Positions 40,488 through 46,522 of a stretch of 64,000 nt of DNA are shown piece by piece. The notes beneath the pieces are model-generated. The model did not search any database. It saw only the letters and a list, made by a program, of their open reading frames with translations, and was not told the origin of the DNA. Position numbers and translations under genes: made by a program. The stretch covers positions 38,965 through 102,964 of the forward strand of contig MPDC01000017.1 of NCBI GenBank assembly GCA_001874255.1, given 5' to 3'. Origin of the DNA: Alphaproteobacteria bacterium MedPE-SWcel. GTDB taxonomy: Bacteria; Pseudomonadota; Alphaproteobacteria; Rhodobacterales; Rhodobacteraceae. The first letter of the stretch is position 1. Each line of letters starts with the position of its first letter.

Positions 40488-40976
40488 TTATTTGATCTTG
40501 TTGGCGACGTGACTTGCAAACGCGTCAATCATCGCAGTGTAGAAAACATCGCTCTCAACAGTCAGGGATGATGTATCGGTGCCCTCGGGGAAATAGACGT
40601 TGGCCTGATCTGCGGTCACGGTCAGCGTATAGCGCTGGTCGTCCTTGCTCCCCGGCAAATCCACCGACACATCCCCTTGCAGGACGGAACTCGCGATGCC
40701 CAGCTCAGCCTCGAAACCGGAGGCGAGAGACACTGTGTCGATTTCGATGTCAATGTCAGCTGCGTCCTTGGTGCCCTCTTCGGCAATCTGGTTCACCAGT
40801 TGCGCGGCCAGCGCGGTTTTCAGGTCTGTCTCGAGCTCGCCCCAGACTGCGACAGCTTTCGAATTTTCAAGGGCGCTGATGTCGGCCTCGACCTCAATGT
40901 CCTGGACCAGAATCGACGCGCCGGCGGCCGTTGCCATGGAGATAACGAGGGCGGTGGTGCGGATCAGATGAGTCAT
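40488..40976 (-). CDS. Secreted protein of unknown function (general stress response candidate)
   Basis: MTHLIRTTALVISMATAAGASILVQDIEVEADIS..., signal-peptide-like; preceded by exact GGAAC-N16-CGTT. Confidence 0.6.
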   Translation of the reverse strand: MTHLIRTTALVISMATAAGASILVQDIEVEADISALENSKAVAVWGELETDLKTALAAQLVNQIAEEGTKDAADIDIEIDTVSLASGFEAELGIASSVLQGDVSVDLPGSKDDQRYTLTVTADQANVYFPEGTDTSSLTVESDVFYTAMIDAFASHVANKIK

Positions 40977-41027: not shown

Positions 41028-41052
41028 AACGGGTGGCGCGGGGAAAAGTTCC
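41028..41052 (-). promoter_or_regulatory. EcfG-type promoter GGAAC-N16-CGTT
   Basis: Reverse strand GGAAC (41052-41048), 16-nt spacer, CGTT (41031-41028); upstream of 40976 start. Confidence 0.75.
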
Positions 41053-41127: not shown

Positions 41128-41152
41128 GGAACAATGAGCCGACCGGCGCGTT
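41128..41152 (+). promoter_or_regulatory. EcfG-type promoter GGAAC-N16-CGTT
   Basis: GGAAC 41128-41132, 16-nt spacer, CGTT 41149-41152; upstream of ExoD-family gene starting at 41191. Confidence 0.75.
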
Positions 41153-42059: not shown

Positions 42060-43922
42060 CTAAAGTGTCTGATCCACTCCGGAGTGGTAGTGATTTTCCG
42101 GCTCGAAGGGCATGACGTCAAAGGTGAGGCTGACGCAATAGCTGTCGTCGGTCTCATCGAAGACCGGGCTCCCTTCCAACTGACGCGCAAAGCCCCGGAT
42201 CAACTGGCTTCCCAGCCCGGTGCCTTCATCCTCCGGTGCGATAGTGTCGGAGGTGGAGTTGGCGACGGTCAGTGTGACCTTGTCATCATCCAGAACTTTC
42301 AGGGACAGGCGGACCCAACGCTGGCCTGCCTTGTCAATGCCGAGATACTTCAGCGCATTCGTCGCCGCCTCAACGGCGAGCAAAGCCAGAGGCACGGCTT
42401 GATCCGGATAGAGAACGATCGGATCGAGTTCCATATGGATCTGCGGCACCGGCGCAGTCGTTGGCGCAAGGTCGGTCAGGGGGCGAACCACATCACGCAG
42501 CAGGTCATTCGCCTGCACGCGCCCGAGTTCAGAGGCCTGATAGAGCGTCTGGTGAACCGTGGCGACACTGGTCACCCGGCGGTTCACGGTTTTCAGCGCG
42601 GCCGCGGTCACCTCGTTGCGGGTCCGGCGAATTTGCATGCTGATGATCGAGGAAATGAGCTGCAGGTTGTTTTTGACTCTGTGATGCAGTTCCTTCAGCA
42701 ACACGTCCTTGTCATGCATCGCATCAAAGAGGGTTGCCTCATCCAGCAGCAGCTTTTCCGCCATCTGCGTGAACTGATCTTCGATCACCTCCAGCTCTAT
42801 TGGCATGAACGAGCCCGAAGTGGACGCCGGCAGGGTGCGGGACTGGGCAAACTGACGCATCTGCAGGCTGATTGTCCGAAGATAACGTACGACCTGGCGA
42901 TCCAGCGCGACATAAATAAGGATCAGGCTGACCAGCCACATCAGGATTGGAAACAGGGCAGGCGTCAGCAGAAGCTGGTTGAACGCCCCCGGGGCGGAGG
43001 GCGCATGCCTGCCGTCCGGATCCCAGCTTCCGATGACATAAAAACCGCTGCTGAGAACCGGTACAATTGAAAACAACCGCCGTTGCCCCGCAGCATTTTC
43101 TGTTTCGATCCGGCGCGGGTTGAGCTCTATGAGCTCCTTCAGGCTGATGGTTGCGGGCAGCCGCTCCCTTGCCGTTTCCCGTGCGCCAGAGGCACTCAGG
43201 ATGTCGCCATCCGCGCTGATGGTGACGAGGTCAATCGGGCGGTCCCCCAGCTTGACCTGGAAATTCTCGTCGATCTTGTCATGTGGGGCGTGGATGATCT
43301 GATTGCCGATAAAAGTGTCGTCGCGATCAAAGACGGGCTCGGACACAATCAGGACCGCATCGCCTGCGACAGGCCCAACCGGGTTTACCCGAACCTCGCG
43401 TTTCGGGCTTCGCATCCATGTGACAAAGTCCGGATTGTCAGTGTAGTCGATCGTCAAATCCGCGGATGCACAGTCCATTACGCCATCAGTCGGCAGAAAA
43501 CCTGCGAAACTGTAGCGCTCTGACATGGCATCCACGAAATTGGTCATCAATGCGTTGCAACGTTCCAGGTCATCGGTCAGATCCGGCAGGGTCAACGCGA
43601 GGGTCTCGGCTGCGGTAAAGGCCGATTTGATGATTTCCCGTTCTTCCTGCGCAAATTCTGCGGTCAAGGCCTGCAGGCTGAGGTTGTTCGACGTTGTCAC
43701 TTCGTTTTGCAGCCGGACAGTCTGGTCGACGGCAATGAGACCCAGAGGAACCAATGCGCCAGAGAGCAATATGGCAAGCCGGATCGACAGGTTGCGTGTC
43801 CAGCCAAAGGGTCTGGATACGTCCGGTTTATTTCCGCCGCCCTGGAGAGACGGAGACTGGGGGGGATTTGTCTGCATAGGGTCCTGCTTGGATGCTCGCG
43901 ACGGAAGGGTCCTCCGATTCAC
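42060..43922 (-). CDS. HisKA_2/HWE-type sensor histidine kinase (PhyK-like candidate)
   Basis: 'LLKELHHRVKNNLQLISSIISMQIRR' H-box; TM-flanked periplasmic region; overlaps ecfG stop. Confidence 0.88.
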   Translation of the reverse strand: MNRRTLPSRASKQDPMQTNPPQSPSLQGGGNKPDVSRPFGWTRNLSIRLAILLSGALVPLGLIAVDQTVRLQNEVTTSNNLSLQALTAEFAQEEREIIKSAFTAAETLALTLPDLTDDLERCNALMTNFVDAMSERYSFAGFLPTDGVMDCASADLTIDYTDNPDFVTWMRSPKREVRVNPVGPVAGDAVLIVSEPVFDRDDTFIGNQIIHAPHDKIDENFQVKLGDRPIDLVTISADGDILSASGARETARERLPATISLKELIELNPRRIETENAAGQRRLFSIVPVLSSGFYVIGSWDPDGRHAPSAPGAFNQLLLTPALFPILMWLVSLILIYVALDRQVVRYLRTISLQMRQFAQSRTLPASTSGSFMPIELEVIEDQFTQMAEKLLLDEATLFDAMHDKDVLLKELHHRVKNNLQLISSIISMQIRRTRNEVTAAALKTVNRRVTSVATVHQTLYQASELGRVQANDLLRDVVRPLTDLAPTTAPVPQIHMELDPIVLYPDQAVPLALLAVEAATNALKYLGIDKAGQRWVRLSLKVLDDDKVTLTVANSTSDTIAPEDEGTGLGSQLIRGFARQLEGSPVFDETDDSYCVSLTFDVMPFEPENHYHSGVDQTL

Positions 43923-44476
43923 GCAGCGGTTCCACCGCTGGCTGAAACCACGGCATGGGTGGCCGCGTCCGTCAGCTCCATGCGGTCATTTGCATCGATG
44001 TGCATCTTGAGGGCCAGCGCTTCGCGCCCGCGATTGAGACGGCTCTTGATGGTGCCGACTTTGACGCCACAGACCTCTGCCGCCTCTTCATACGAGTATT
44101 GCAGGACGCCAATCAGGGTCAGCACTTCCCGCTGTTCCACAGGCAGCAGGTCCAGCGCCGCGCGAAATTCCGCCAATTGCAGGCGACCGTCATGAGCCGG
44201 TTTCACCGAGATGCTCTCGGTCATGGATCCGGTGGAATCCTCGACTTCCCGCACGGCCTTGCGGCGGTTGGAGTAAAATGTGTTGCGCAGGATCGTAAAC
44301 AGCCAGGCCCGCATGTTTGTGCCTTCCTGGAATTTTTCCAGATTGGTCCATGCTTTCAGAACCGTATCCTGGACCAGATCGTCGGCTGCGGCATCATTGC
44401 GGGTGAGACTCATGGCGAAGGCCCGAAGCACCTTCATGTGACTGATCAACTCAGCCTTGGCATCCTGTCTGTTCAT
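43919..44476 (-). CDS. ecfG: General stress response ECF sigma factor EcfG
   Basis: Sigma-70 region 2 and 4; flanked by NepR, PhyR and HWE-type kinase. Confidence 0.92.
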   Translation of the reverse strand: MNRQDAKAELISHMKVLRAFAMSLTRNDAAADDLVQDTVLKAWTNLEKFQEGTNMRAWLFTILRNTFYSNRRKAVREVEDSTGSMTESISVKPAHDGRLQLAEFRAALDLLPVEQREVLTLIGVLQYSYEEAAEVCGVKVGTIKSRLNRGREALALKMHIDANDRMELTDAATHAVVSASGGTAA

Positions 44477-44658
44477 CCTTCGGCCTCCGGGAGGGGCGCC
44501 GAACCATCGGCTCCATCCGTGACCTGAATTTTGTCAAGACGATCGAGGAGTTCCAGAAGGTGCGGCGGCAAATCTGCATTGGCATCTTCTTCGAAAACCT
44601 TCTTCAGGTTTTCGTCGATGAGGCTGTCCCATGACTGTTTTTGTGGCCGGTGTGGCAT
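44473..44658 (-). CDS. nepR: Anti-sigma factor NepR
   Basis: 'SWDSLIDENLKKVFEEDANADLPPHLLELLDRLD' NepR core; overlaps ecfG start. Confidence 0.9.
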   Translation of the reverse strand: MPHRPQKQSWDSLIDENLKKVFEEDANADLPPHLLELLDRLDKIQVTDGADGSAPLPEAEG

Positions 44659-44708: not shown

Positions 44709-44745
44709 CATGGAACAAACGCGATTGTCGGACGTTTGTTCCATG
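44709..44745. promoter_or_regulatory. Palindromic bidirectional EcfG-type promoter between nepR-ecfG and phyR
   Basis: catGGAACAAACGcgattgtcggaCGTTTGTTCCatg; GGAAC-N16-CGTT reads exactly on both strands. Confidence 0.85.
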
Positions 44746-44770
44746 GAATATTGGTGACAGGAGAAAAAAA

Positions 44771-45592
44771 TTGTCGACCCCCACCACAGGACAAGCCCTG
44801 ACTCTGTCGGACCTTATCGCTCCTCATCTGCCGTACTTGCGCCGTTATGCGCGGGCATTGACCGGTGCCCAGCAGTCCGGAGATACCTATGCCGCCTCGA
44901 CCCTTGAGGCTATCCTCACAGATCCAAGCTGTTTTGAAGCGCGCGATCTTGGCGGGAAAGTCGCCCTTTTCAAAGTGTTTCACAGCCTTTGGGGCAGCTC
45001 TGGCCAACCCGTTGCCGAATACGACGACGGCCCCCGTGCCCGTGCATTGCAGCATCTTTCTGCCTTGACGCCGAACACCCGCGAAGCGCTGTTGCTGAAT
45101 ACCGTTGAATCATTCACCGTCGGCGAGATCTCTCACATCATGGGCATCGACGTCGAAGAGGCGGCGCGCTTGATCCAGTTGGCCCGCGACGAGATGCAGC
45201 AGGCGGTGAGTGGCAAGATCATGATCATCGAAGACGAAGCGATCATCGCGATGGATCTAGAAGGTATCTGCACCATGATGGGCCACGAAGTCACGGGTAT
45301 CGCACGCACTCGTGCCGCTGCCGTGAAACTGGGAACCGAGGACAAACCGGACCTGATACTGGCCGATATTCAGTTGGCAGATAATTCCAGCGGGATCGAT
45401 GCCGTGGCTGACCTGCTGGAAACGATCGGCGACGTTCCGGTCATCTTCATCACGGCCTTCCCGGAACGCCTGCTGACCGGAGAGCGACATGAGCCGGCTT
45501 TCATGATTGCAAAACCCTATGTCCCCGATCAGGTCGTTTCGGCGATCAGCCAGGCGATGTTCTTTGCTTCGACAGATACGCTGACCAATTAA
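44771..45592 (+). CDS. phyR: Anti-anti-sigma response regulator PhyR (TTG start)
   Basis: N-terminal sigma-like domain plus receiver domain 'IMIIEDEAIIAMDLEGICTMMGHEV'; 'aggagaaaaaaaTTG' start. Confidence 0.9.
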   Translation: MSTPTTGQALTLSDLIAPHLPYLRRYARALTGAQQSGDTYAASTLEAILTDPSCFEARDLGGKVALFKVFHSLWGSSGQPVAEYDDGPRARALQHLSALTPNTREALLLNTVESFTVGEISHIMGIDVEEAARLIQLARDEMQQAVSGKIMIIEDEAIIAMDLEGICTMMGHEVTGIARTRAAAVKLGTEDKPDLILADIQLADNSSGIDAVADLLETIGDVPVIFITAFPERLLTGERHEPAFMIAKPYVPDQVVSAISQAMFFASTDTLTN

Positions 45593-46497: not shown

Positions 46498-46522
46498 AAC
46501 GGCCGACGGCTGGATTTGTTCC
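46498..46522 (-). promoter_or_regulatory. EcfG-type promoter GGAAC-N16-CGTT
   Basis: Reverse strand GGAAC (46522-46518), 16-nt spacer, CGTT (46501-46498); upstream of DUF1328 and dps-like genes. Confidence 0.75.

Follow-up and report, generated by a model that had tools for sequence, protein, structure and literature searches.

A probable bidirectional EcfG promoter in a palindrome between phyR and nepR-ecfG, conserved across Rhodobacteraceae

Whether the general stress response of Alphaproteobacteria fires depends on the balance between PhyR and NepR. At the locus described here, phyR and the nepR-ecfG unit are divergent, and ~112 bp separate the nepR and phyR start codons. In the window, by which we mean the whole 64,000-nt stretch of DNA that was analysed, all four components of a PhyR-NepR-EcfG general stress response locus are present by Pfam (PhyR, NepR, EcfG and an HWE/HisKA2 kinase):

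44771..45592, + strand: phyR, TTG start, AGGAG at 44759-44763 (Pfam PhyR_sigma2, 2.6e-25; PhyR_sigma-like; Response_reg)
44473..44658, − strand: nepR, anti-sigma factor, 61 aa (Pfam NepR, 2.3e-07)
43919..44476, − strand: ecfG, sigma factor, start overlapping the nepR stop (Pfam Sigma70_r2, Sigma70_r4_2)
42060..43922, − strand: HWE/HisKA_2 sensor kinase (Pfam HisKA_2, 8.7e-22; HWE_HK)

By Pfam, the phyR product joins a sigma-like domain to a receiver. The phyR gene apparently starts at the TTG that follows the AGGAG leader, and both start and leader are conserved across a genus subgroup (window 44771; L347-L353). The kinase gene probably belongs to the nepR-ecfG operon, and its true start may be an inner ATG of 42060..43922. 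Plasmid pDSHI02 of Dinoroseobacter shibae is annotated with the same gene order. The whole kinase-ecfG-nepR-phyR locus is plasmid-borne in several roseobacters (NC_009956.1, NC_015741.1 and others), a location that may make the stress switch movable or losable.

Between the two units, with phyR to its right and nepR-ecfG to its left, lies catGGAACAAACGcgattgtcggaCGTTTGTTCCatg (44709-44745), a perfect palindrome with an 11-nt core and 13-nt arms (44709-44721 and 44733-44745, flanking cat/atg included), of which 44712-44742 is the conserved part, GGAACAAACG-N11-CGTTTGTTCC. The published EcfG consensus is GGAAC-N16/17-C/GGTT (PMC12148442; PMC4814048), and the phyR and nepR-ecfG units are both generally EcfG-driven (PMC4814048; PMC8103513). 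A pattern search of the window found GGAAC-N16-CGTT at 44712-44736 on the + strand and at 44718-44742 on the − strand. The sequence-only reading had held that the EcfG consensus is perfect on both strands and that the arms are exact inverted repeats, and its coordinates and sequence proved exact. The elements are as follows (counts refer to the 77 Rhodobacteraceae pairs described below):

44712..44716, + strand: −35 of the putative phyR promoter, GGAAC, intact in 76/77 family pairs
44733..44736, + strand: −10 of the putative phyR promoter, CGTT, spacer 16, CGTT intact in 61/77
44738..44742, − strand: −35 of the putative nepR-ecfG promoter, GGAAC, intact in 77/77
44718..44721, − strand: −10 of the putative nepR-ecfG promoter, CGTT, spacer 16, CGTT intact in 50/77, the remainder mostly NGTT
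44722..44732, no strand: unconserved core between the −10 elements, family pairwise identity ~0.25 at the centre, varying within the genus

The two sites are interleaved with no base in common: the top promoter occupies 44712-44716 and 44733-44736, the bottom promoter 44742-44738 and 44721-44718, and 11 bp lie between the two −10 elements. Even with three mismatches allowed, the window contains a single copy of the full palindrome, and none of 100 shuffles has one; for a looser interleaved EcfG pattern it is again the only match in the window, with 0.09 expected. No sigma-70-like promoter was called in the 500 bp around the palindrome. We read the palindrome as one bidirectional EcfG-dependent promoter built of two interleaved consensus sites, one for phyR and one for nepR-ecfG, and consider this reading well supported, with a probability of about 0.8.

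Further perfect EcfG-type sites lie nearby, one upstream of a DUF1328 gene (46498-46522, −) and two that form a separated divergent pair (41028-41052, −, and 41128-41152, +), with an ExoD-like gene on one side and the ORF ending at 40488 on the other; the genes next to them may be stress-regulon members grouped round the switch. The placement of AACG close after GGAAC was considered as a general EcfG spacer preference and discarded, as it occurs within 4 nt in only 3 of the 28 other sites examined in the same genome.

Conservation was followed at two depths. At the level of the genus (the genome of the window plus seven with PhyR 85-96% identical), the 10-nt arms GGAACAAAC and GTTTGTTCC, with both CGs, are identical letter for letter in all eight genomes and the 11-nt core drifts; in a ninth, whose PhyR is less similar (61%), the palindrome takes the 33-bp form. 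Identical arms around a free core are the footprint expected from two overlapping promoters. At the level of the family, a PhyR search of 199 genomes gave a match in 90, about half of the genomes having none, and the 90 upstream regions were compared. A superimposed EcfG pair (≤1 mismatch per site) is present in 77 of them, and 41 of these pairs are perfect in both directions. Identity per alignment column is 1.00 at the two −35 elements and ~0.25 in the core and near flank. Many of the 13 exceptions have distant PhyR paralogues, and some retain the dyad with a weak −10. A few members have no dyad: on a plasmid of R. litoralis (L345 2394-2501), for example, both recognisable EcfG sites have been lost, while nepR, ecfG, the kinase gene and phyR remain. 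In a PhyR tree the Rhodobacteraceae form a single clade with superimposed sites in 40/42, and as judged from these alignments the superimposed layout is a hallmark of the family, kept across almost the whole of it, a point that the sequence-only reading did not make. That reading would have been refuted by an inverse half-site that is not conserved, and the alignment finds the half-site kept in genus and family. The claim that two superimposed EcfG promoters serve phyR and nepR-ecfG is supported, in that consensus, position and conservation of all four elements agree.

One measure of rarity was abandoned. In an even sample of 387 genomes from the class, only the genome of the window has the exact k=1 pattern (GGAAC-N1-AACG). 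This result misleads, since the k=2 form (GGAAC-N2-AACG) is the one in most relatives, and it came to light only when the search was anchored on phyR. A scan of ~85,000 species genomes for GGAACNNAACGN{10,11}CGTTNNGTTCC returned at least 117 stretches; 108 of the 117 matches listed lie at phyR or ecfG (97 at phyR with a divergent ecfG, 9 at phyR only, 2 at ecfG only). The other nine among those listed are unrelated, in Methylobacterium (4), Marinobacter (2), two Rhizobiaceae MAGs and one Clostridiales MAG, and ~8 chance matches are expected from the size of the collection alone at equal base frequencies. The named locus matches among those listed belong to the Rhodobacteraceae sensu lato, ranging from Rubellimicrobium and Paracoccus to Sulfitobacter and Celeribacter; some listed locus matches are MAGs whose names are merely broad.

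Beyond the family, the two EcfG sites usually stand apart, back to back. Of 24 other-class loci that have a divergent ecfG, 12 carry back-to-back pairs (≤1 mismatch per site), three carry superimposed pairs with a mismatch, and strict superimposed sites are absent from all. In the back-to-back pairs the −35 elements are mostly 6-9 bp apart, with a mode of 8 (L271, L273, L274, L276, L283, L286, L289, L292, L296), a second narrowly kept arrangement, in which two polymerases may likewise be crowded. In another family (f41), six of the seven genomes have a superimposed dyad of 32 bp in front of phyR; the dyad reads GGAACCAACGGGGAAG..GCATTGGTTCC (L337-L341, L343), with a phyR −10 that is mostly CATT. 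In the PhyR tree, whose deep branches are weakly supported, this family stands apart from the Rhodobacteraceae clade, which suggests that superimposition arose there independently.

If the palindrome is a bidirectional promoter, its architecture would be GGAAC-N1/2-AACG-core-CGTT-N1/2-GTTCC, and EcfG-RNA polymerase would bind it in either of two orientations. The rightward orientation would lead to phyR, with a start expected near 44742-44745, and the leftward one to nepR-ecfG(-kinase), with a start expected near 44709-44712, so that the starts would lie ~32 bp apart. Each −35 would fall roughly at positions −5 to −1 with respect to the opposite promoter, within the region to be melted, and only one orientation should therefore be occupied at a time. 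At sigma-70 bidirectional promoters one polymerase is bound at a time (PMC12825309); from this precedent and the geometry we infer that the two orientations exclude each other. At such promoters competition sets in only once one direction is highly active, noise then being lower, and in E. coli there is no competition at basal activity (PMC12825309). Given the latter result, exclusion at the palindrome may matter only under strong stress.

Competition for one site would have a further consequence. The ratio of phyR to nepR-ecfG initiation would equal K1/K2, the ratio of the strengths of the two sites, at any level of free EcfG, whereas with separate promoters of unequal affinity it would drift as EcfG rises; for separate sites with K1/K2 = 3.3 the calculated ratio falls from 3.3 at low EcfG to 1.0 at high EcfG. 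One shared site would, in addition, set a ceiling on both outputs when stress is strong. Since the partner switch is controlled by the PhyR:NepR ratio, a constant ratio would be useful, and we advance, as a tentative hypothesis, that ratio-locking explains why the palindrome is conserved. Its fuller form, a stoichiometry lock selected family-wide that fixes the PhyR to NepR-EcfG ratio independently of EcfG and arose at least twice in Alphaproteobacteria, is conceivable and falls short of an even chance.

The most probable of the rival explanations is economy of space, in which two independently useful EcfG promoters overlap merely because the start codons of nepR and phyR are so close, and exclusion has no regulatory role. 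It fits with sigma-70 bidirectional promoters being common and, at basal activity, free of competition (PMC12825309). However, two separate sites do fit before phyR in other families, so that space does not force the overlap, and the narrow family-wide range of dyad lengths together with the second apparent origin suggests that the overlap itself is favoured, common descent explaining part of this pattern. We regard space-saving as rather unlikely, though a serious contender.

Less probable still is that only one direction works as an EcfG promoter in vivo, the other gene being driven by another sigma factor or start site. The expression data from R. sphaeroides, which also count against the bidirectional reading, speak for this explanation: under membrane stress ecfG (RSP_1272) mRNA rises in a PhyR-dependent manner and phyR mRNA does not, and oxidants raise phyR mRNA and not that of RSP_1272 (PMC5830050). 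In that species dRNA-seq detects one promoter for nepR-ecfG (PMC5830050). A near relative standing in for R. sphaeroides, Luteovulum azotoformans (as recorded), has a perfect palindrome (L233). According to the sequence-only reading, the one site would also couple feed-forward on phyR to feedback on nepR-ecfG. The R. sphaeroides data argue against simple co-induction, which is not automatic from a shared site; in R. sphaeroides either phyR has another promoter or the choice of orientation is regulated. The −10 elements point partly the same way, being weak on one strand in some family members and perfect on one strand only in 29 of 79 dyads, where the perfect copy is more often that of phyR (20 versus 9, p = 0.06, the rows not being independent). 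Against a single working direction, the −35 is kept on both strands in 76-77/77 pairs, NGTT is present on both strands in 67/79 dyads, and in the window both sites are perfect. With two working directions, a single perfect −10 in 29 dyads means that the strengths of the two sites need not be equal.

A dimeric transcription factor could also be proposed, with the palindrome as its operator for repressing or activating both genes and the likeness to EcfG sites incidental or secondary. A perfect dyad between divergent genes is typical of dimer operators, and there is partial conservation (C/A) in the stretch that separates GGAAC from AACG. An operator of this kind would have a fixed half-site and dyad spacing, but in the family the gap from GGAAC to AACG is 1, 2 or 3 nt, 16- and 17-nt spacers are mixed, and the GGAAC..GTTCC dyad, counted with no −10 required, measures 31 (8), 32 (46) or 33 bp (24), other lengths occurring at most once each. 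CGTT follows the top GGAAC after 16 nt (39) or 17 nt (22) and the bottom GGAAC after 16 nt (33) or 17 nt (17). As gap and dyad length vary while the 16/17 spacing holds, what is held constant is the spacing of a sigma factor, not that of a protein-dimer half-site. Moreover, the conserved letters are those of the EcfG consensus, and in other families these genes have ordinary EcfG sites that stand apart, which leaves the operator highly improbable. The idea that the inverted repeat is an RNA hairpin or terminator can be set aside almost entirely, for although the predicted fold, were it transcribed, is strong (−28.9 kcal/mol, z −4.3), there is no T run and no terminator was called at the palindrome, the starts expected at its outer edges would leave it out of both transcripts, and the core is free while the arms vary as promoter elements do.

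A promoter at which phyR and nepR-ecfG had to compete for a single polymerase site would be a simple, hard-wired means of keeping the PhyR/NepR balance. The overlap is conserved in a large environmental family and other families have separate sites, so that nature itself provides a comparison; laboratory strains such as Dinoroseobacter shibae, which has the palindrome, make it directly testable.

Bidirectional promoters and EcfG promoters are both known already, whereas the interleaved EcfG palindrome and its conservation are apparently new: the searchable literature, which does not extend to subscription papers, yielded no earlier report of either. The predicted GSR promoters of Rubellimicrobium thermophilum (PMC12148442, Fig. 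4) concern the same kind of locus, and the palindrome is present there (L211); a word search of that paper's text finds no palindrome named there. With the EcfG (ECF15) promoters of Alphaproteobacteria the palindrome shares the genes, the consensus GGAAC-N16/17-CGTT and the divergent EcfG-driven units (PMC4814048, PMC8103513). The difference is one of layout, since in the other families examined that have a clear pair the sites are usually separate and back to back with −35 elements 6-9 bp apart, and here they are interleaved within 31-33 bp. The bidirectional promoters of Warman, Grainger and colleagues (PMC12825309 and earlier work cited there) likewise consist of symmetric DNA giving divergent RNAs from two exclusive orientations, which for the palindrome are predicted from symmetric, interleaved and conserved elements for two polymerase orientations at one site. 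Those promoters, however, are read by sigma-70, share a −10 and have starts mostly 10, 18 or 23 bp apart. In contrast, the palindrome has separate −10 elements, with a full −35 and −10 per strand, no bases in common and one fixed locus family-wide, and would widen the bidirectional class, described for sigma-70, to include an ECF sigma factor acting at a defined regulatory node.
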